Virus record (IMG/VR): IMGVR_UViG_3300046703_000126
Coordinates: 1 to 35,840 of that record
DNA from: a virus
DNA: 35,840 nucleotides
Reading direction: 5' to 3' (one strand)
The notes beneath the pieces were generated by a model that was given only the letters and a program-made list of their open reading frames with translations, was not told the DNA's origin and did no database searches. Within the stretch, counting starts at the first letter, position 1. The number at the start of each line of letters is the position of its first letter. This document shows, piece after piece, positions 3,028 to 35,840 of the stretch. The position numbers and the translations under genes were made by a program.

Positions 3028-3576
3028 CTATGCGTCTTTTGTTGTGATTAAAAAGTCGGCGGCCCTGTTGTGCCAGCCCTTCCGAAACTTTTCAAGCTTT
3101 GGATTTTTTGCGATAATGTCGGTGTACCTGTTTTCTTGCAGTTCATATATTTTTTCAGAAAGTTTTTTATCATCCCCGCAAAGCGCAATCATGTTTACGA
3201 CTGATATTGTCTGTGTCCCAATATTGCCGTCAATTTTTACAATATCCGCCTTGTTGACGACCTGGTTGACGGCATACTGCAAATGCTTCTGCCACAGGCC
3301 CACGCCCTGATTGACGCCGGCTTGAAATAGCTGTTCCGCGATAGGCTGAGACTCAAAAAAATCAAGGCTTAACGGCTCCCAGTAATTGCGTTTATAAATA
3401 TTCATGGCAAAATCTAAAGGCATGTCGCACATGGGCCCGCGCCAGTCGTTACGGCGGGCCACTGCCATGGTGATCCCGTGAACGGTCCCGCCGCCTGGAT
3501 CGTCAGGGTCATTGGTATAAACGCCGAAGCCCTCCCACTTCCCGAGCCGTACTGCCGCGCGTTTGAAGTCAGCCAT
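3028..3576 (-). CDS. endolysin, glycoside hydrolase family 108 type
   Basis: 182 residues, the usual length for phage GH108 N-acetylmuramidases. The N-terminus carries the family motif: catalytic Glu15 in KWEGFGVYTNDPDDPGG followed by TVHGIT. The second half (GVNQGVGLWQKHLQ to DGNIGTQTI) matches the peptidoglycan-binding domain that follows in this family. No signal peptide is visible, so release through a holin is expected, and hydrophobic small proteins lie just upstream in the operon. It would cut the glycan strands of the host wall at lysis. Confidence 0.88.
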   Translation of the reverse strand: MADFKRAAVRLGKWEGFGVYTNDPDDPGGGTVHGITMAVARRNDWRGPMCDMPLDFAMNIYKRNYWEPLSLDFFESQPIAEQLFQAGVNQGVGLWQKHLQYAVNQVVNKADIVKIDGNIGTQTISVVNMIALCGDDKKLSEKIYELQENRYTDIIAKNPKLEKFRKGWHNRAADFLITTKDA

Positions 3577-4544: not shown

Positions 4545-5714
4545 TCATTTCAAAACACCGATTCCCGTCAGTTTATATTCGGTCTTGCTCGATTTTTCGA
4601 TTCCCGTGGTCACAAAAATATAATCGTCATACTCGAAATAATCGGCCAGTTTTATGATTGCGTCTTTTATTATGGGAGCCTCAAAGGTGTAGTAATACCG
4701 GTTAGCGATCGAAAGCTTTCTTGCGGCTATAAACGCGGCCACTGCCGCCGTGCAGAAAGTATTTGACAGGGAGTATTCCAGCACCAGATCCCCGGTCCCG
4801 GCTGTGGCGGTTGCCTCAGCGGCGCCGGATGCGGTTTTATAAGTCAGCAGCACCTTGTCGTAGTACTTGTCTGTTTTTTCCAATATAGTCGGCTGGGTTA
4901 TTAAATAATTCTTTTCTGCGATATCCAGGGCCTGCTTGGGCCAGTACGCGGGTACCGCGAAGGCGTTAATTGTGAGGCCGTCGTTGTAGATCCCGATATC
5001 GTAACTCTCACACAGCTCGTCTATTAATGCCTTGACGTTTGCTGTGTCCACGTCTGTGTCCAGGGAGACATTAATGCCCGCGAGGACGTTACTCTGGGAT
5101 ATTATGTTCCCGACCAGGTACTCCTCGGGCAGGTACGTCTCAAAAAAATACTTAATGTGTTGCGCGGGATTATTCAGCGCCAGGTCAAACGCGGCCACAT
5201 ATTTATTTAAAAAATCTGTCATCGGCAGGCTCTTGACCTCAAGGCGCTTACGCTTAAAATCAAACGTGCGCTCGGATAGGTATCCTTTATATACTTTTGT
5301 ATCGTTCCGAAATATTTCCAGTGTGGCGCGGCTCTGAATGTTCTCCCGGAATTCAAGCGGCATTTCAGCGTCCACGCCGTCGAACGCGAAATCATAACCG
5401 TCAATTATATTCAGCTCGTTATTTTCCGTATACTTATTTGCGCCGAAATCGGTTATATCAAGATTATTTACTTTTATTTCATATTCTTTTTCCGGTTTAA
5501 AGATAGTAAAAGACTGATATGTAAACCCGGTTTTTGTGTATGTACCGCCGTCGGGGTTAGTGATAACAATATCTACGGTCCCGGCCGCGTGCGCGGGAGG
5601 CGTGCAGGTTATTATTGTGTCTGACACTACGGTTATATTTTTAGCGGCAGTCCCGCCAAAAGTAACTGTCGCGCCCGGCTTAAAGTCCTGCCCAATTATC
5701 GTTATTGTTCTCAT
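4545..5714 (-). CDS. tail hub-like protein with N-terminal IPT/TIG domain
   Basis: 389 residues. Residues 1 to about 68 match the IPT/TIG immunoglobulin-like fold: ITIIGQDFKPGATVTFGG, then VSDTIITCTPPAHAAGTVDI and NPDGGTYTKTGFTY. The rest looks like a baseplate/hub protein of the Mu gp44 or gpD type: a beta-rich start (KPEKEYEIKVNNLDI), a KVYKGYLSERTF segment and LIDELCESYDIGIYND in the middle. It starts in an ATGA overlap with the malectin-like gene. The IPT domain may bind carbohydrate or act as a spacer. The hub assignment is inference from fold-like patterns and tail position. Confidence 0.6.
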   Translation of the reverse strand: MRTITIIGQDFKPGATVTFGGTAAKNITVVSDTIITCTPPAHAAGTVDIVITNPDGGTYTKTGFTYQSFTIFKPEKEYEIKVNNLDITDFGANKYTENNELNIIDGYDFAFDGVDAEMPLEFRENIQSRATLEIFRNDTKVYKGYLSERTFDFKRKRLEVKSLPMTDFLNKYVAAFDLALNNPAQHIKYFFETYLPEEYLVGNIISQSNVLAGINVSLDTDVDTANVKALIDELCESYDIGIYNDGLTINAFAVPAYWPKQALDIAEKNYLITQPTILEKTDKYYDKVLLTYKTASGAAEATATAGTGDLVLEYSLSNTFCTAAVAAFIAARKLSIANRYYYTFEAPIIKDAIIKLADYFEYDDYIFVTTGIEKSSKTEYKLTGIGVLK

Positions 5715-6655
5715 GTTTTTTTAATCCAGTTCCAGCCAGACCACCACCACCATGGCGTAATATTCGGGGTTACGGTTAAGATTATGGGGGAGGAATGAGT
5801 CTGCGTTATTGTCGGAGTAACCGTAACTGTCGCTGTTATGGTTTTTGTAGCTGTCGGAGTTACTGTTTGCGTTATTGTTTTTGTAACTGTTTTTGTTACT
5901 GTCTTTGTTATTGTCTGCGTGACTGTTTGCGTTACCGTTTGCGTTACGGTCTGCGTTACCGTTTTAGTTACGGTCTTAGTCACCGTTTTAGTTACGGTAG
6001 GCGTTACTGTCGGGGTATAGGTAACAGTCGGGATAAACGTCGGCGTTATCGTAGGAGTATTCGGATAATTTTCGATATATAAATTGTTTAAAATTGGAAC
6101 CTGTTTTATTGCTGTAAAATCAAACTGCATAACTCCATTTGTTACGTCCACGATATACGGCTGTCCTGAGGCGTTATCTGCCCTAAGCCCGCTTATCGCT
6201 GTGTAAGACGTCCGACTGCCATACGCTGCAAGGCATTCATCGGATACATCGTATATAGCTACGTATTCCGTTACACTTCCCTGACTTCCAAAACTCATTT
6301 TAAATCGCCGCTGATTTGTTAAAACAAATTCGTAAGTCGTAAAACCCGGGTATACCTTATATCTCCCGTTCGGTACTTCTACAAAATATTGTAAATTAGT
6401 CGCGTGGTACGCGCAGGATTGATATATAGTGTCCTCCACCGTATGCGCCTGTGCGTTCGCGGCGGAATAGGTAGTAGTACCGCTCCCGACGCCAAAACCG
6501 TTTGACCCGTTCCAGACCTGATCCGTTTTCCAGGTCAAGCCCTGCGAATCCACAAACTGATTGCCACCGACATTTACGGCAAACGGTAAGGCAACGTTGC
6601 CCGCGTAAGCGGCTGTTGTAAAAAGCAAGAATAAAACAACAAATATTTTTTTCAT
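5711..6655 (-). CDS. secreted malectin-like protein with Thr-rich TVTK/TVTQ repeat tail
   Basis: 314 residues. Signal peptide at 1-18 (MKKIFVVLFLLFTTAAYA). Residues about 20-195 fit a malectin-like carbohydrate-binding domain: VNVGG, DSQGLTWKTDQ, DTIYQS, then VEVPNGRYKVYPGF and a later RRFKMSF. Residues about 203-290 are a low-complexity rod of T-V-T-K and T-V-T-Q units that could be heavily O-glycosylated. The C-terminus has four consecutive tryptophans (302-305) and ends WNWIKKT, perhaps a membrane or wall contact. ATGA overlaps link it to genes on both sides. It may coat or mark the infected cell, or attach to virions after lysis; neither is shown. Confidence 0.7.
   Translation of the reverse strand: MKKIFVVLFLLFTTAAYAGNVALPFAVNVGGNQFVDSQGLTWKTDQVWNGSNGFGVGSGTTTYSAANAQAHTVEDTIYQSCAYHATNLQYFVEVPNGRYKVYPGFTTYEFVLTNQRRFKMSFGSQGSVTEYVAIYDVSDECLAAYGSRTSYTAISGLRADNASGQPYIVDVTNGVMQFDFTAIKQVPILNNLYIENYPNTPTITPTFIPTVTYTPTVTPTVTKTVTKTVTKTVTQTVTQTVTQTVTQTITKTVTKTVTKTITQTVTPTATKTITATVTVTPTITQTHSSPIILTVTPNITPWWWWSGWNWIKKT
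5795..6045 (-). repeat. 12-base coding repeats for T-V-T-K/Q units
   Basis: About eleven clean 12-base units encode Thr-(Val/Ile)-Thr-(Lys/Gln), with degenerate TPT units on both flanks. Third codon positions vary between units, so the protein pattern is kept more strictly than the DNA. The order of the fourth residue is grouped (three Lys, four Gln, three Lys, then Gln). Repeats of this kind can change number by recombination. Confidence 0.8.
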
Positions 6656-16786: not shown

Positions 16787-17353
16787 TTATTTGCCTCCTT
16801 TGGCCGCTATCGCTTTAGCTTTTTCATAGGCTTCTGCGTGCGAGAGTTTCTTTCCGACTTTTTCAGCCTCTATCTGCAATCCCTTCGCGGAAGCAATGAT
16901 CGCTTCCTCTCCGGACAACTGCGTCCCGTCTGTTGCCTTGCCCGTAGGCGCTACCTTTTTGGACATGAGCGCCAAGGTTCCTTCCGCAAAAGACAGGTCC
17001 TCGAGTGACAGCTGTTTTACAAACACATGCTGTTTCGCCGGGTCCGTCTCTTCTATTTCAGCCTTCGACAGCTTTATGTCCGTCACTGCCAGTACTTTCA
17101 GCGCTGTTATCTTTTCCTCGCGCGCCTTTGCGAGTACGGCCGCCTGAGCGTCCTTTATGGTCTTTAGCTCCGTTTCCTTTGTGGACAGCGTGCCTTTGAC
17201 CGTTATCAACTCGGCTTTTACCGTGGAGAGTTCGCCTACTGCTTCATCCCTGCCCTTAGAGAGCGTTGTTATAGCTTCAACAATCGCTTCCTCGGAGGCT
17301 TCGGCTGATAGCTTTATCCCCTTGGTTCCAAGAATTGCTATTATCTGTTTCAT
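16787..17353 (-). CDS. capsid scaffold, internal-start product
   Basis: An in-frame internal ATG at 17353 begins MKQIIAILGTKGIKLSAEAS and is preceded by GGAGGA about 11 bases upstream. The product of 188 residues is highly helical with long heptad-like stretches (TVKAELITVKGTLSTKETEL), the hallmark of capsid scaffolds. Lambda Nu3 and Mu Z arise the same way from within a protease gene. The protein should guide shell assembly and then be removed by the protease. Confidence 0.65.
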   Translation of the reverse strand: MKQIIAILGTKGIKLSAEASEEAIVEAITTLSKGRDEAVGELSTVKAELITVKGTLSTKETELKTIKDAQAAVLAKAREEKITALKVLAVTDIKLSKAEIEETDPAKQHVFVKQLSLEDLSFAEGTLALMSKKVAPTGKATDGTQLSGEEAIIASAKGLQIEAEKVGKKLSHAEAYEKAKAIAAKGGK

Positions 17354-17977
17354 CTTGGATTGTTCCTCCTTCTTTTGATTTTTTAAATCGTTTTCAATCC
17401 GCAGCTGCTCTGCCCGCTGTGCTTCCCGTTCTTCGTGTTTCTGTGTCAATGTCGATAATGCCATGGGCATAAGTTCCATGCAAAACGGATCACTTGTCAG
17501 CGCTCCGCCCACCAACACGTTCGCCGTTGCCTGCCCTGTTTGGTCATCGACATATACCGGGTCTGATCCGTAGTACTCTATGGATGTGTACTCTTTGCCC
17601 TCCACTTTGTTCGCCTTTATGGCGTCTGGAGTGACTTGAGCTTTCATCCAAAGCGATTTTACTCTCTGCCCGGTGCTTAATGTTTTATCTTCTGCCTTTA
17701 CATCAACAATCCAGCCCGCAAATTCAGAAGCCCAATGTTCAAAATTAAGTTTGAGCCGGAATCTTCCGTTCGCGTCTGGCCAGCGTCTAACAGTTCCATT
17801 TTTAAAGTTCCTGACAAAATCTAAAATCATTGCGTCCGTGATCGCGAACGTACCTTTGTAGGTACCTGTTGAATCGAAAGAGTGTGTGGCCTCAAACCAA
17901 TCGCCCTCTTTTAAAGCAAGCCTGTTTTCGGCTGTCAGTTTTATCGCGATGATACTTTGATTTTTTAAATCATTCAT
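16787..17977 (-). CDS. prohead protease-scaffold, Mu gpI-like
   Basis: 396 residues from ATG 17977, which overlaps the portal stop as ATGA and has a perfect AGGAGG 8 bases upstream; an upstream ATG at 18010 is less likely. The N-terminal about 190 residues fit Mu gpI-type maturation proteases: LKLNFEHWASEFAGWIVDVK, then KEYTSIEYYGSDPVYVDDQTG and VGGALTSDPF, with His and Ser positions expected for this fold (catalytic triad not proven here). The C-terminal half is a helical scaffold with its own internal start. The fusion allows scaffold and protease to share the interior of the prohead. Confidence 0.75.
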   Translation of the reverse strand: MNDLKNQSIIAIKLTAENRLALKEGDWFEATHSFDSTGTYKGTFAITDAMILDFVRNFKNGTVRRWPDANGRFRLKLNFEHWASEFAGWIVDVKAEDKTLSTGQRVKSLWMKAQVTPDAIKANKVEGKEYTSIEYYGSDPVYVDDQTGQATANVLVGGALTSDPFCMELMPMALSTLTQKHEEREAQRAEQLRIENDLKNQKKEEQSKMKQIIAILGTKGIKLSAEASEEAIVEAITTLSKGRDEAVGELSTVKAELITVKGTLSTKETELKTIKDAQAAVLAKAREEKITALKVLAVTDIKLSKAEIEETDPAKQHVFVKQLSLEDLSFAEGTLALMSKKVAPTGKATDGTQLSGEEAIIASAKGLQIEAEKVGKKLSHAEAYEKAKAIAAKGGK

Positions 17978-20412
17978 GCCGCTATCCTCCTGCTGATTAT
18001 TCCCTTCCACATGGCAGGGATATCGTGATTGTGTTTATGACTTAAGGTAGACTGCGCGGCGACTACAGACGCGGGCACATCCCAGCCGTCCCACGTCTCA
18101 GGCTGTTCTTCGTCGGACATGATCGGGATCTTGTAAGATTCGCATGACCAGTGATTCGGTGGCGAACGCAACTCAATGTCCGGATCTCCCTCGCGCGCGG
18201 TACGCCCGGCTAGCCATGTGCAGATATCCGTTACGGGTGAGTCGTTCATGTATATCCAGCCGGTTATTGTTATGCCCGCGTTTTCGTATGTTTCATCACG
18301 ACCCACATCGAGCGCAGACGGGATAATTGCGCCGGCGCCGAGGTTATTGGCCGAGCCTTTCCAGTCGTCCATGGCCTGCCGCGTTTGAAATAATATCTCT
18401 GCGTCAGTTAAGTTCTGATCTGCTGCTTTCTTCACGGCCAGCAAAGCTTCCTTGCCAAAAGTATCGGTCATGACCTTAAGCGTTACCGCGGCTGTTGATT
18501 TAACCCACTTTTTATTTTTAGGCAGGAAGTCATCTACCCCCGCCAGCTGTGATAAGGACAGGCCCGCTTTCTTTGCGGCCACTATCTGTTTGCCCTGGGC
18601 TTTTCCTACCTTCACGGCGCCGACAATGCCGTCAGTCAGCACGCCTCTTAGATTGGCGGTAAATCCGAGTTCAATATTTGCTACTGCTCCGACTTTATTG
18701 TCCTGGTTAAATTTGAGCTTATTCTCAACATCGTTTAAATATTTATCCTGAATCACCTGCAGGGCGGAATGAACATCCTTGTTCCACGAATCAGTTACGT
18801 TTGTGAGCTCTTCGGTCATGTCCTTAAACTTTATTTTGCCTGTGATTGATTTGATATACGCGGCGTCCTGTCTGGACAGGGTTGACATTTTGCTTTTATC
18901 TTTTGCGGGCATGTCCTCGGCGGGTTTGCCCTTTGCGTCTTTGCCGTCTGTCGGAGCGGCTTCGGGTGTGCTGTCCTCATCAGCAGGCTGGTCTTCAGGT
19001 GTATTCGGGTCGGGAATAACCGGTTCAGGCACTTTTTGATCAGGATCAGACGCGGCCATGATTTTAAGCTCAGGCAGTTTGTGCCGTTTGCGCAAATATG
19101 CCTCGTCTTCAGGCTGCGGCGTATACACGCCCATGTTGTAATAATAATTCAACATCCTTGCACGTTCCTCCCCTGCCTTTTCGTCCAGCTCGCCTTTAAG
19201 TACGGGATACTCAGCCTGTTCGCCGAAGTTGTAAATTATCAGGTCGTTCCACATACGCTGTGTTTTCTCGCAGATGTATTTTAGTTTTCCGGCAATCATG
19301 GAAAAGAAGAAATCAATATCAGCAACACCGAGGTTGTACGCCCCGCCATTCCCGCCCTGTCCGAGTTCCGAGAACGCGGCCGCGCCGCACTTGGCTATGT
19401 TTGTGTCCTCGAGTTTTATGGAGTTTATGACTGCGTCAGCTTTAAAATCAATGTTTATAATCTCAATGTCGAACCCCTCAAATTTATCGTTGTTCATGGT
19501 CCCCGTCTTTTTTAAATAAGCGTTTTCATGCACGACATAGTTGCTGACTGCCTCCAAAAAGGCTTCTTCTTCTGCCGTGCCGACTTTATTCGGTGGCACA
19601 GTGATCACAGGCAGACCCATAGACGCTTTTTCGAGTCCTATGCCGAGTAACTTGTAATAAATATTCTTTCTCCACCAGGGACCGTAAGCAGTACGCAGGA
19701 CCGAGCGACCCTCGACATTGCCGCCTTTTCTTTTTTCGCTGAGGACAATCAGGTCTTCGCCCGGAATCCATGCGTCGGAAAATGGGGTTGAATAATTTGT
19801 TTGCTGATGTACTTCGATGATATCGCCGCGGGTGTCCATTTTCCAGCCGACAAGGCTGGTCTGGTCTCGGAAACCCATGGTGTGCAAACGCCAGATAAGC
19901 CCGAACTTGGGATGTTTATATGCTTCATAATCCAGCGGTTCAAATACAGCGTTACCAAAAAAGATATGACTGCCGAGGTCGTTTAAATTCTCGTCTGATG
20001 TCTTATTGAATCCATGCGCCCACTGCCACTCACACAACTCAGCATGTTTGTCCCCGCCGGCTACATCTGGAATCGAAAAGTTGAATGTCGCGGCTTTTAT
20101 GATGCCCATAATTGATGTCTCGAGCAGGCCTACCTGATAATCCGAACGAAGCATTTTCTCAAACGTAATTGCGGCCTGATATCCCCTTAAGTCGCTTATA
20201 TATTCCTCGTTGAATACATCACCCCACATGCGCGTGGCCACAACACCGGCAGACTTCTTTTTCTTTGCGTTCTCTGCCTTGTCAGCTGCGACAAGCTGTT
20301 CGGCTGTATATACTCTCTGATTTGGCGTGAGGTTTTGCAGTCTGTTTGCCAGTGCTTCGGGCGAGCTTATGGATGTGTGTCTGACGTTGAGTTTCATGGT
20401 ATTTTTTTTCAT
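17974..20412 (-). CDS. portal protein (DUF935-like) fused to a MuF-like head protein
   Basis: 812 residues. Residues 1 to about 460 match Mu gp29-type portals (DUF935): EYISDLRGYQAAITFEKMLR, AWIPGEDLIVL, GRSVLRTAYGPWWRKNIYYK and FSELGQGGNGG. A Pro/Asp/Ala-rich linker (about 465-520) follows. The last 280 residues resemble MuF/SPP1 gp7-type minor head proteins, ending in DICTWLAGRTAREGDPD and SPPNHWSCESY, the usual Cys and PP-N-H-x-x-C block. In Mu the two are separate genes. A GAGG stands 8 bases before ATG 20412. The portal part forms the DNA channel. Confidence 0.82.
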   Translation of the reverse strand: MKKNTMKLNVRHTSISSPEALANRLQNLTPNQRVYTAEQLVAADKAENAKKKKSAGVVATRMWGDVFNEEYISDLRGYQAAITFEKMLRSDYQVGLLETSIMGIIKAATFNFSIPDVAGGDKHAELCEWQWAHGFNKTSDENLNDLGSHIFFGNAVFEPLDYEAYKHPKFGLIWRLHTMGFRDQTSLVGWKMDTRGDIIEVHQQTNYSTPFSDAWIPGEDLIVLSEKRKGGNVEGRSVLRTAYGPWWRKNIYYKLLGIGLEKASMGLPVITVPPNKVGTAEEEAFLEAVSNYVVHENAYLKKTGTMNNDKFEGFDIEIINIDFKADAVINSIKLEDTNIAKCGAAAFSELGQGGNGGAYNLGVADIDFFFSMIAGKLKYICEKTQRMWNDLIIYNFGEQAEYPVLKGELDEKAGEERARMLNYYYNMGVYTPQPEDEAYLRKRHKLPELKIMAASDPDQKVPEPVIPDPNTPEDQPADEDSTPEAAPTDGKDAKGKPAEDMPAKDKSKMSTLSRQDAAYIKSITGKIKFKDMTEELTNVTDSWNKDVHSALQVIQDKYLNDVENKLKFNQDNKVGAVANIELGFTANLRGVLTDGIVGAVKVGKAQGKQIVAAKKAGLSLSQLAGVDDFLPKNKKWVKSTAAVTLKVMTDTFGKEALLAVKKAADQNLTDAEILFQTRQAMDDWKGSANNLGAGAIIPSALDVGRDETYENAGITITGWIYMNDSPVTDICTWLAGRTAREGDPDIELRSPPNHWSCESYKIPIMSDEEQPETWDGWDVPASVVAAQSTLSHKHNHDIPAMWKGIISRRIAA

Positions 20413-24269: not shown

Positions 24270-24634
24270 TACTCACAGTCCTGTACGGCGTTCTTTACTG
24301 CTTCCATGCCGGCCTTCATGCTCGCGGCTTTTTCCCTGAGTTCGTCTGCCCTGGCTGTGAGCTTCTCGGCCTTCGCTTCGAGCTTTTCCGCTTTCTTACC
24401 GGACTTTAAAAGATTTTTGATAAAGCGCTTAGTGTCCTTGTCGAGCCTGCGCGTGTACTTTCTTTTGTGTTTCACGGGTTCTCCTTTTTCACGGCCTAAG
24501 CCGAATTTGTTTTTGCAGTCTTTGCATAGTGACGAAACAACAACCGGTATCTTCCTTCCGTTAAGCTGTTCTTCCGCCTCATGGTCGAGGCGGCACTTCG
24601 GGCAAAGGCATTCAACGTCAATATCAATTCCCAT
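24269..24634 (-). CDS. zinc-ribbon and coiled-coil protein (121 aa)
   Basis: N-terminal metal site: C-P-K-C at about residues 11-14 and C-K-D-C at about 37-40, two CxxC knuckles 23 residues apart, typical of a small zinc ribbon. The C-terminal half is a basic then heptad-like helix (KSGKKAEKLEAKAEKLTARA) likely to dimerise. AAGGGGG lies 6 bases before the ATG. It overlaps the ParB-like gene end. Function unknown; nucleic acid binding is likely. Confidence 0.6.
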   Translation of the reverse strand: MGIDIDVECLCPKCRLDHEAEEQLNGRKIPVVVSSLCKDCKNKFGLGREKGEPVKHKRKYTRRLDKDTKRFIKNLLKSGKKAEKLEAKAEKLTARADELREKAASMKAGMEAVKNAVQDCE

Positions 24635-25922
24635 TTTTAACCCCCTTCGCTTTTCCCTTTTTACCGGAAACTTCCTTCTCCTTGCCTACACATACCTTTT
24701 CAGCGTCCTCCGCTTTAAGATCTAAGACAACCTGTTTTTTGATCTCATTCCAGTCAATACCCAGCCGCGTCAAGAACAGATAGTAGCTCCCGCCATCCTC
24801 AAACGGATCCCCGTTCTCCCATGAATCCCAGTCATTGCCGTATTCGTTATCCGGCGGCTCGGCTCCCTGCAGTAGTATCTCGCAGAGCAAGTCTGCTTTC
24901 TTCAGCATGGGCCCTTTCACGCGCAGTTTGTCAAACGTTAATCCGGGATCACCCGCTTCTTTCTCTGAATACCCGCAGTTCAGCAGGGCAAGTTCAAGAT
25001 CATGGCTGTTGATATTCGATATCACCGCGTCAAACACGAAATCAAAACTGTCCTTGTTTATAAGTTTTGACTTCAAGAACTTTTCTTTTGCGGTCCTGCC
25101 GGCGCGGATGTTCGTTTCCAGTATTACCCTGCGGTTGAACTGCTTCTCCCTGATCTTAGCCCAGCGTTCTTTCTTTCCGCTCTCACTGTGTCCTTCCACA
25201 AGCTTGGCCTTGGGGACGAACTTTATCGCGTCCGGAACGCTGACCAGCTGCTGAATCTGACCGTCCCCGTCGATTGCCAGAACCGGCTGGTATTTTGTGT
25301 CTTTAAGGGCCGACCTCCACGTCGAGGATCCGTATCCTTTTAAGTGATTGTAATCCGTGTTTGCGCTTTCCGCTTCGGCGCCCTGCAGGATCGTCCGCCC
25401 TTCAGCCTTGTACTTTTTTACCAGCCTGTCGCCCTGGGCGGCTTTCTTCTTCTCCCAGCATTTTTTGTCCGTGCACCGGTCTTTGTTGCCTTCGTCCCCG
25501 AACAAATCCCGCTGCGCCGCGGTGTTTTTGAGGCACGTGCTGCAGTCACCGGCTTCCGCCTGCAGGTTCTCAATCACCTGTATTTCGATCACCTGCTGAT
25601 CAGTGAGGTCCATGACTATGACCGGCACTTCCTTCAGGCCGGCCAGCTGCGCCGCGCGATACCTGCGCTCGCCGCACACTATTTCGTATTCGCTGGGTTC
25701 GTCGGTCTGGTCATAACCGCGTCTTACAATCAACGGCTGCAGTATTCCCTTGTCCTTGATACTGGCTGCCAGGTCCTTCAATCCCTGATCATCAAATACT
25801 TTTCGCGGGTTCGTGCTGCTCGGACAAAGATTCTCGAGCTTGTGCATTTCAAACGCGCCCTGCTTCAGCATAGCGGGCGGTACTGCCTTTCCTGTTTCCT
25901 TTTCCACCACGTTCTTTTTCAT
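24624..25922 (-). CDS. ParB-like protein, internal-start product
   Basis: Same frame as the fusion protein at 24624-26384 but starting at ATG 25922 (MKKNVVEKETGKAVPPAM), 7 bases after a perfect AGGAGG. The product of 432 residues holds the complete ParB/Spo0J-type N-terminal domain and DNA-binding region. The strength of the internal ribosome site makes separate synthesis likely, or shows that two genes became fused by loss of a stop. Confidence 0.55.
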   Translation of the reverse strand: MKKNVVEKETGKAVPPAMLKQGAFEMHKLENLCPSSTNPRKVFDDQGLKDLAASIKDKGILQPLIVRRGYDQTDEPSEYEIVCGERRYRAAQLAGLKEVPVIVMDLTDQQVIEIQVIENLQAEAGDCSTCLKNTAAQRDLFGDEGNKDRCTDKKCWEKKKAAQGDRLVKKYKAEGRTILQGAEAESANTDYNHLKGYGSSTWRSALKDTKYQPVLAIDGDGQIQQLVSVPDAIKFVPKAKLVEGHSESGKKERWAKIREKQFNRRVILETNIRAGRTAKEKFLKSKLINKDSFDFVFDAVISNINSHDLELALLNCGYSEKEAGDPGLTFDKLRVKGPMLKKADLLCEILLQGAEPPDNEYGNDWDSWENGDPFEDGGSYYLFLTRLGIDWNEIKKQVVLDLKAEDAEKVCVGKEKEVSGKKGKAKGVKNGN

Positions 25923-26384
25923 TTCAAAGCCTCCTGTTTTATTATTAAAAATCCGAGTTAAGTCTTCCAAATCGCCCCTTCCGTCCGCCATGAGCCGCAT
26001 TACATCGTAGTCGCCCGGGTTCTGCGTGCCGGTGATATAAAGCAACTTTCCCGCGCCTTTTGCGTACCCGGCTTCCATGTGCGCCGAGTTGCCGCACGGC
26101 AAAAGCATTACCACGCAGTCAGACCACTCCACCGCGGCTATATCGTTTTCATACGCTTTCACCGCGAGCGGCATGTCCTCAAGCATTGCTTGAGTTATAT
26201 CGGACGGTTTTTTATCGTGCCATGCCAGCGTTTCCCTTTTTAAAAACTCATCCATACTAAAAACATGCGCGTTGCTTTTCGGGTCTGTGAAGTCATAGAC
26301 CTCGTGCCCATGCGTCCTCAACAGTTCTGCCAGCGTTCGGCATGCGAAGGCGTTCTTCCAGCTTGTGGCGATATATATTTTCAT
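24624..26384 (-). CDS. deoxyribosyltransferase-like domain fused to ParB-like protein
   Basis: 586 residues from ATG 26384, which has AGGGGG upstream and an ATGA overlap; an ATG 39 bases further up is rejected. Residues 1-154 resemble nucleoside 2-deoxyribosyltransferases: start KIYIATSW, a GHEVYDF strand, and the catalytic-region pattern LPCGNSAHMEAGYAKGAGK. From 155 the ParB domain follows: LCPSSTNPRKVFDDQGLKDL, GILQPLIVRR, CGERRYRAAQLAGLKEVP and VIENLQ, then a cysteine-rich block (CSTC, C, C) and a long helical tail. ParB-like proteins bind specific DNA and may use CTP. The domain combination is uncommon. Function in this phage is unknown. Confidence 0.75.
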   Translation of the reverse strand: MKIYIATSWKNAFACRTLAELLRTHGHEVYDFTDPKSNAHVFSMDEFLKRETLAWHDKKPSDITQAMLEDMPLAVKAYENDIAAVEWSDCVVMLLPCGNSAHMEAGYAKGAGKLLYITGTQNPGDYDVMRLMADGRGDLEDLTRIFNNKTGGFEMKKNVVEKETGKAVPPAMLKQGAFEMHKLENLCPSSTNPRKVFDDQGLKDLAASIKDKGILQPLIVRRGYDQTDEPSEYEIVCGERRYRAAQLAGLKEVPVIVMDLTDQQVIEIQVIENLQAEAGDCSTCLKNTAAQRDLFGDEGNKDRCTDKKCWEKKKAAQGDRLVKKYKAEGRTILQGAEAESANTDYNHLKGYGSSTWRSALKDTKYQPVLAIDGDGQIQQLVSVPDAIKFVPKAKLVEGHSESGKKERWAKIREKQFNRRVILETNIRAGRTAKEKFLKSKLINKDSFDFVFDAVISNINSHDLELALLNCGYSEKEAGDPGLTFDKLRVKGPMLKKADLLCEILLQGAEPPDNEYGNDWDSWENGDPFEDGGSYYLFLTRLGIDWNEIKKQVVLDLKAEDAEKVCVGKEKEVSGKKGKAKGVKNGN

Positions 26385-26467
26385 TTCATCCCCCTTCCCG
26401 CGTAAAAACCAATCATAAGACATGCTGCGATTAAAGCCCCTACTTTAAAAAATGTTAGTTCGATCAT
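26381..26467 (-). CDS. one-helix membrane protein (28 aa)
   Basis: MIELTFFKVGALIAACLMIG followed by FYAGRGMK: nearly the whole protein is one membrane helix with a basic end. Both stop and start overlap neighbours as ATGA. Its last codons carry the ribosome binding site of the ParB-fusion gene, so part of its role may be translational coupling. Confidence 0.55.
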   Translation of the reverse strand: MIELTFFKVGALIAACLMIGFYAGRGMK

Positions 26468-34660: not shown

Positions 34661-35622
34661 CTGCCACCGCCCCCTTCACGGTCCGTATTTGCCGCTTCCG
34701 CCTTTGCCTTGTTCAGCGTATTCTCGAGCCACTTGCCGGTGAGCTGTGTGGCGTTTTCTTTAAAAATTTCCCTGCCGTCTTTTGTAAAACCAGAAAAATT
34801 TTTAACCGCTGCCTTGACCTTCGCGTCATCAGTGCCTACAAGGCCCTTGACTACTTTCAAGAGTTCTTCCTGCTTTGCCGCGTCTTCTGCTGACACAGTG
34901 GCGCCGCGTTGTACGTCTTTGATTTTTTCAATATTCAAACCGGCAATTGTGAGTTCTTCGACCGTTACGGACCTTAATCCCACGAGCCTGACAACCGCCA
35001 CACGCATGAGGTCTGAATATGATTTATATTCAAGGTCGCGCATGTCAATGTCTGCCATTGGTTTAAATGTTTCCTTAGTCTTTCCAAAAAAATCATCCTT
35101 TGTCCAGGATGAACCGAACAATGCCTGCAGTTCATACACAACTCTGTTTCCGACTGCTATCTGTCCCGTTCCCTCGTGGCGAAATCTTTTCCATTTCATT
35201 CCGACGTGCTCGCCGTCAACGTCCACGCCGTCCTCTACTGTCCTAACAATGTCTGTTATCCTGACCCCAAATATCGGCGCTATCTTTTCCGCGCCGGTGA
35301 TTTCCAAATAAGGCTTACCGCCCTGGAGAACCCAGTCCTCTTCGTTCGTCTGCTGTATGGCAATCTTGATTAGTTCCTTTTTGTTTTTTTGCCGCTGCCG
35401 GATAACATCAAGCATTTTTGTCTCTACATCGACGGTCATTTCAATTTCTTTGATGTCCTGGCCGGGCGCAACTACAAGCGCTACTTCTGCCGCTGATGCC
35501 GCTACTGTCTGCGGCGGTATTACTTCCGGCTGCTTTGCCGGCTCTGCCGGCGGTGCGGGTGGTGCTGTTTTGCCCGGCTCCGGTTTTTTACCGAATAAAT
35601 CGTCCTGTTTTTTAACTGTCAT
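34657..35622 (-). CDS. putative single-strand DNA annealing recombinase
   Basis: 321 residues. Pro/Ala-rich N-terminal 45 residues, then a domain that includes DWVLQGGKPYLEITGAEKIA, GNRVVYELQALFGSSWTKDD and YSDLMRVAVVRLVGLRSVTV. This does not match classic RecT, Beta or Sak motifs by eye. The gene order (exonuclease, SbcC-like, DnaQ-like beside it) and the repeated G-G-K-x-Y-L-x-x-x-G-A-E-K-I pattern suggest a phage annealing protein. A good GGGAGGA precedes ATG 35622. Its N-terminal part is present twice more upstream as chimeric copies. Confidence 0.55.
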   Translation of the reverse strand: MTVKKQDDLFGKKPEPGKTAPPAPPAEPAKQPEVIPPQTVAASAAEVALVVAPGQDIKEIEMTVDVETKMLDVIRQRQKNKKELIKIAIQQTNEEDWVLQGGKPYLEITGAEKIAPIFGVRITDIVRTVEDGVDVDGEHVGMKWKRFRHEGTGQIAVGNRVVYELQALFGSSWTKDDFFGKTKETFKPMADIDMRDLEYKSYSDLMRVAVVRLVGLRSVTVEELTIAGLNIEKIKDVQRGATVSAEDAAKQEELLKVVKGLVGTDDAKVKAAVKNFSGFTKDGREIFKENATQLTGKWLENTLNKAKAEAANTDREGGGGR

Positions 35623-35840
35623 GTCGTATTCCTCCCTTACATTTTTTGATTTTCTTAAATCTTAATGCTGAAAAACGCCAGTAATTTTAAAATCCACATC
35701 TTTTCCGCGCCGGTCGTCTGCTGTATGGCAATCTTGATTAGTTCCTTTTTGTTTTTTTGCCGCTGCCGGATAACATCAAGCATTTTTGTCTCTACATCGA
35801 CGGTCATTTCAATTTCTTTGATGTCCTGGCCGGGCGCAAC
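35346..35840. repeat. 368-bp repeat at the right end; terminal redundancy of 495 bases
   Basis: Bases 35346-35840 equal bases 1-495. The first 368 bases are one unit of the tandem repeat and the last 127 start the next unit. The overlap of exactly 127 bases between contig ends is a typical assembly k-mer length, so the ends probably mark a closed loop, not a natural virion end. Confidence 0.9.
35655..35840 (-). CDS. C-terminal part of a chimeric annealing-protein copy (window edge)
   Basis: The frame enters from the right end and finishes with TGAEKMWILKLLAFFSIKI, as in the complete chimeric frame at 310-645. It is the continuation of the copy whose start is at base 277 once the contig is closed. 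Only 32 bases separate its stop from the start of the full annealing-protein gene. Confidence 0.5.
   Translation of the reverse strand, partial: VAPGQDIKEIEMTVDVETKMLDVIRQRQKNKKELIKIAIQQTTGAEKMWILKLLAFFSIKI

Follow-up and report, generated by a model that had tools for sequence, protein, structure and literature searches.

How did an enzyme domain and a ParB-type protein come to share one reading frame in a viral genome? In the window, the whole 35,840-nucleotide stretch of DNA analysed here, a minus-strand frame opens at ATG 26384 and closes with the stop codon at 24624-24626 (Table 1). A preliminary description had read it as an enzyme domain joined in frame to a ParB-type DNA clamp. The in-frame joining is there, as 586 open codons, and an alternative earlier ATG at 26423 adds 13 codons, giving 599 aa. 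However, the joining does not look like a designed enzyme-DNA clamp but like something that arose by chance or in recent evolution, and we consider it probable that two ordinary neighbouring phage genes were turned into one reading frame by the loss of a stop codon.

Table 1. Features of the joined reading frame, in window positions.
Feature	Position	Strand	Basis
Run-on ORF, NDT-fold enzyme plus ParB_N protein, 586 aa	24624..26384	-	Open frame; also in second contig
NDT-fold enzyme, complete domain, aa 1-145, motif PCGNSAHMEAG	25948..26384	-	PHROG 12607, model, conserved residues
T5 run (25951-25947), then TAATAATAA (25947-25939) one frame off, remnant-like stop cluster	25939..25951	-	
AGGAGG, RBS of the ParB part, 7-nt spacer to ATG 25922	25930..25935	-	Sequence
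ParB-fold protein as a possible separate product, 432 aa from ATG 25922	24624..25922	-	ParB_N; separate gene in L091 and L027
ParB_N (NTP-binding) domain, motifs NPRK, GERRYRA and ENLQ kept	25560..25847	-	Pfam, Foldseek
Deletion point, about 120 aa including HTH_ParB (PF17762) missing	25551..25562	-	ENLQ-to-Cys spacing, Pfam
Four-Cys motif (CxxC...CxxxxC) after ParB_N, probably metal binding	25458..25544	-	Alignment

The frame is also found in a sister contig, IMG/VR 3300046710_000143, which is 99.92% identical to the window over 7.9 kb. The two differ there by three mismatches and one 3-nt indel, all outside the run-on ORF; the copies are identical over the whole ORF, junction letters included. 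As the junction recurs in a contig that is not identical to the window, an assembly error confined to one contig is unlikely, and so is the masked stop codon that had been named as a way to overturn the preliminary description. No further members of the same phage appeared among the matches listed in the IMG/VR scans. With the frame kept in two non-identical contigs and no unfused sister found, the fusion is at least stable.

By its modelled fold and catalytic residues, the N-terminal half is a member of the NDT superfamily. Its match to PHROG 12607, 'nucleoside deoxyribosyltransferase', has E 8e-27 when the whole protein is searched (aa 2-134) and 5e-28 for the domain taken alone. The Pfam family Nuc_deoxyrib_tr (PF05014) gave 15.7 bits (E 0.017), against a gathering score of 28.8; stand-alone relatives also fall under this cut-off, so the miss reflects a limit of the Pfam model. 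Direct phmmer comparison of the NDT part with the PDB gave no match, and a profile gave weak matches to MilB and one NDT. Joint alignment of the whole fused protein placed ParB_N onto the NDT part, and the halves were therefore modelled separately. For the NDT half, an AlphaFold model built on an alignment of 82 sequences reached a mean pLDDT of 89.7 and has the flavodoxin-like NDT fold. Among solved structures the best match is a 2'-deoxyribosyltransferase, 7o62 (Z 17.6 and rmsd 1.9 over 122 aligned residues); further NDTs and DNPH1 come next. The deoxyribosyltransferase-like fold proposed earlier is thus confirmed by both profile and model. Residues assigned to the catalytic positions by sequence, rather than by a superposed pocket, are kept in nearly all relatives: Tyr4 in 82/82, Asp81 in 80/82 and Glu104 in 82/82. 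In the profile alignment, Glu104 falls on the nucleophile of MilB, Glu103.

Nucleoside-type NDTs have an Asp or Asn six residues before the nucleophile, which binds the 5'-OH. In the window this position is Gly98, and 81 of the 82 relatives have Gly there. The same Asp is absent from the nucleotide-acting phage enzyme DmtZ (PMC12884076), and MilB, also nucleotide-acting, likewise has neither Asp nor Asn (PMC4081090). The active-site motif thus resembles that of the nucleotide-cleaving MilB/DmtZ branch, which makes a (deoxy)nucleoside 5'-monophosphate a more likely substrate than a free nucleoside. Judging from these residues, the most likely activity is removal or exchange of the base on (deoxy)nucleoside 5'-monophosphates. 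MilB is the best-aligned PDB family for the catalytic stretch of the NDT profile (...GTHVEIGWA versus ...SAHMEAGYA in the window). It is a CMP/hydroxymethyl-CMP N-glycosidase that prefers ribonucleotides, and its F17Y mutation was reported to shift the enzyme to dCMP (PMC4081090). At the position that we infer to be equivalent to Phe17 of MilB, the window has Tyr.

The C-terminal half contains the ParB_N domain that had been proposed for it, with a Pfam match at E 4e-29 in the whole protein (aa 180-275) and 2.8e-29 in the ParB part. Foldseek matched its predicted fold to the CTP-bound ParB structure 7bm8 (E 1.8e-9), and its motifs also match in an alignment to Spo0J. The cysteines C127, C130, C150 and C155 are invariant in an alignment of 42 sequences (A8). 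What separates this protein from its relatives is the stretch between the two regions. Only 2 aa lie between ENLQ and the Cys motif in the window, versus 117-140 aa in 47/47 comparable relatives, meaning those that carry both an ENxQ box and the Cys motif. The ParB proteins of Acidovorax phage Aval and Variovorax phage VarioGold share ParB_N and the CxxC..C..C region with the window, but have HTH_ParB between them, whereas the window does not; Pfam finds HTH_ParB in these two and in L027, and not in the window protein. Relocation of the HTH was considered and rejected, as no other ORF in the window is HTH_ParB-like.

By the usual definition of a canonical ParB, then, the ParB_N domain is present and the HTH is absent. 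A parS-reading DNA clamp is unsupported because the central HTH, which reads parS and is kept in all 47 comparable relatives, is missing. The proposed coupling of an enzyme to DNA binding is likewise left without a visible basis, since the HTH is missing and relatives have the two parts as separate adjacent genes. Rather, the ParB-fold part probably binds nucleotide and does not read parS.

A ribosome-site sequence does lie at the domain border, as had been noticed, with AGGAGG at 25935-25930. Within the window, 10 of the 11 minus-strand AGGAGG sites have a start codon at most 12 nt away, and the plus strand has no such sites; among 176 in-frame internal ATGs in the window's long minus-strand ORFs, two have an AGGAGG. 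The pairing of AGGAGG and start codon at the border is thus more than chance. Six other AGGAGG sites of the window fall within the final 3-5 codons of the preceding ORF, so this junction is unusual only in its missing stop. The border AGGAGG is best read as the ordinary RBS of the ParB gene and not as a device evolved for a short form. The junction reads AATAATAAAACAGGAGGCTTTGAAATG. Shifted by one frame, TAATAATAA stands immediately upstream of AGGAGG, and translation of the -1 frame gives three consecutive stops at the domain border. From these letters, the border looks as if it retains an old intergenic leader.

A second ORF of the window, 16787-18010 (-), also has an in-frame internal AGGAGG (17370) and ATG (17353). 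It comes after a Mu-type portal gene and resembles the Mu-type gene for protease and scaffold, in which the scaffold would be expected to have a nested start of its own. The ORF itself had no Pfam match. Elsewhere, a 300-nt sequence occurs three times, at 1-300 and 369-668 (in tandem, left end) and at 35346-35645 (near the right end), so the genome on record is probably circular or terminally redundant, with an overlap left by assembly. A patatin-like phospholipase gene (1931-2905, -) adjoins an endolysin gene (3028-3576) encoding a glycosyl hydrolase 108 and a peptidoglycan-binding domain. The product of the gene at 5711-6655 (-) is predicted to be secreted and, towards its C-terminus, has long Thr-rich repeats (TPT/TKTVTKTVTQ).

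The closest view of an unfused arrangement comes from L091 (IMG/VR contig 3300045973_000218), the highest-scoring ParB relative among the matches listed (62% in the best segment, 36% overall). Like the window, it has both genes in the same order and on the same strand. Unlike the window, its 146-aa NDT gene ends in TAA, 16 nt before the ParB ATG, and its ParB retains the HTH. The gap reads TAAACGGGAGCATAAAACAATG. A DUF6378 gene lies immediately upstream of the separate NDT gene (L091 1410-1898, +). In L027, NDT is again followed by ParB, with an in-frame stop and 12 nt between them, and in L278 and L290 the order is reversed, ParB then NDT, also unfused. These four unfused cases are too few, against chance, to give the adjacency a functional meaning. 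In annotated phages, relatives of the enzyme stand as single proteins, 144-179 aa long, and their genes do not adjoin ParB. Stand-alone PHROG 12607 enzymes such as Mycobacterium phage Nilo gp81 and that of Rhizobium phage RR1-B have the same domain, fold and catalytic positions at about 35% identity, and end at this length, whereas the window frame continues into ParB.

Among 136 distinct NDT sequences gathered, the only ones running into ParB were those of the window and its sister contig. The NDT relatives sampled were the best 80 of 426 and the best 80 of 324, each scan covering at most the 80 best loci. No other NDT-ParB fusion was among the matches listed in IMG/VR (single-protein and alignment scans), in GTDB contigs (alignment scan with the ParB part) or in about 1,190 genomes of three phyla (NDT alignment). 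The domain search that had been suggested for the same architecture therefore returned the sister contig only, among the matches listed.

Four other NDT genes run past an in-frame RBS-like site into unrelated genes. The L347 frame passes a GGAGG-ATG into an FGE-sulfatase-type protein, and that of L052 enters an Lcl_C-type protein after an AGGA-type site; the sites in L083 and L337 are weaker. Such run-ons into other genes suggest that the partner is incidental. The NDT frames of L032, L052 and L347 lead into Mtd-, Lcl_C- and FGE-sulfatase-type proteins, respectively, kinds that are often diversified by retroelements. A link of NDT to diversity-generating retroelements was rejected, reverse transcriptase being present in 1/50 NDT contigs versus 10/50 ParB contigs. 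A recurring and metabolically sensible fusion was seen in L285, L289, L293 and L307, where NDT continues without a break into a second domain weakly resembling dATP/dGTP pyrophosphohydrolase; the likeness is a sub-threshold Pfam match in L289 and L307 and was judged by eye in L285 and L293.

Phage NDT-superfamily enzymes with a nucleotide-type pocket are known both fused and unfused: Arthrobacter phage Wayne has an NDT-Dut enzyme fusion, and Gordonia phage Ghobes has separate genes, with DmtZ (PMC12884076). The window resembles this pair, but the partner in Wayne is metabolic, a Dut-like dNTP diphosphatase, and the partner in the window is ParB. According to a survey (PMC12704722, PNAS 2025), phages commonly fuse the ParB fold to enzymes; 'deoxyribosyl' is absent from its main text, and a Pfam-based survey would miss the domain. 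The searchable literature, supplements excluded, gave no description of the NDT-ParB pair, in line with the earlier remark that the pair has no obvious published description.

We picture the locus as follows. The upstream gene would be a small NDT-superfamily enzyme adjusting the phage nucleotide pool, and the downstream gene an orphan of the ParB fold, preceded by a Shine-Dalgarno of its own. Loss of the enzyme stop in this lineage would have come about through a point change or a short indel in the T5 run. Ribosomes starting at 26384 would then make the 586-aa fused protein, at a level set by the upstream start, and those loading at AGGAGG would make the 432-aa ParB-fold protein, which probably predominates. 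The ParB-fold part would have lost its HTH independently of the stop loss; it would bind nucleotide and act without sequence-specific DNA reading, and the fusion would have gained no new function. Two points speak against a simple run-on: the stability of the frame noted above, and the loss of the HTH together with the fusion, which could mean that the parts have adapted to each other.

An alternative is a selected two-domain enzyme, which lost the HTH and gained the NDT domain. In it, a ParB NTP switch, closing as a dimer when CTP or another NTP binds, would control or position the nucleotide-cleaving activity. The frame kept in two contigs, the intact nucleotide motifs of ParB_N and the intact catalytic residues of NDT fit such an enzyme, as do the frequent ParB-fold-enzyme fusions of phages (PMC12704722) and the precedent of Wayne and Ghobes (PMC12884076). 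However, it was seen in a single phage lineage, among the matches listed, intergenic remnants and a good RBS persist inside the ORF, and NDT frames elsewhere run on into unrelated genes in a similar way. Because of the single lineage and the leader remnants, we regard it as unlikely. More doubtful is its fuller version, in which the switch traded its HTH for the NDT domain, CTP or NTP binding gates nucleotide destruction or base exchange, and a ParB-only subunit tunes assembly.

Decay of the ParB gene is also rather unlikely. The HTH deletion in an otherwise uniform family, the stop lost at the border and the divergence of the ParB part from L091 would suit a gene on its way out, whose function went with the HTH and in which loss of the upstream stop was tolerated. 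Yet 432 codons are still open, the ParB_N motifs and all four Cys are intact, the RBS is strong and codon-position G+C is like that of the enzyme part; decaying phage genes are usually removed quickly. An assembly or strain-level frameshift artefact, with one T more or fewer in the true sequence and a stop between the genes, is improbable. By reading of the sequence, a 1-nt indel in the T5 run does end the enzyme, either at TAATAATAA or where an ATGA overlaps the start of ParB, but two contigs that differ elsewhere agree at the junction, and a five-T run is not known to be a weak spot of short-read assembly, if that is how the contigs were made. A programmed frameshift seems very improbable: the frame ATT TTT AAT would allow a -1 slip on TTT that puts TAA next, yielding enzyme alone, fusion and ParB alone from one mRNA, but no classical slippery heptamer lies in this frame.

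On either outcome, the window offers a ParB-fold protein without its DNA-reading domain yet with its nucleotide and Cys parts. If the fusion is functional, a nucleotide-cleaving enzyme would be tied to an NTP-binding switch, adding a catalytic partner to those of the ParB-fold fusions. If it is not, as the stop-loss reading has it, the locus would be a clear case of how apparent domain fusions arise in phages: where genes are closely packed and the next RBS lies inside the previous frame, stop loss alone suffices to make one.
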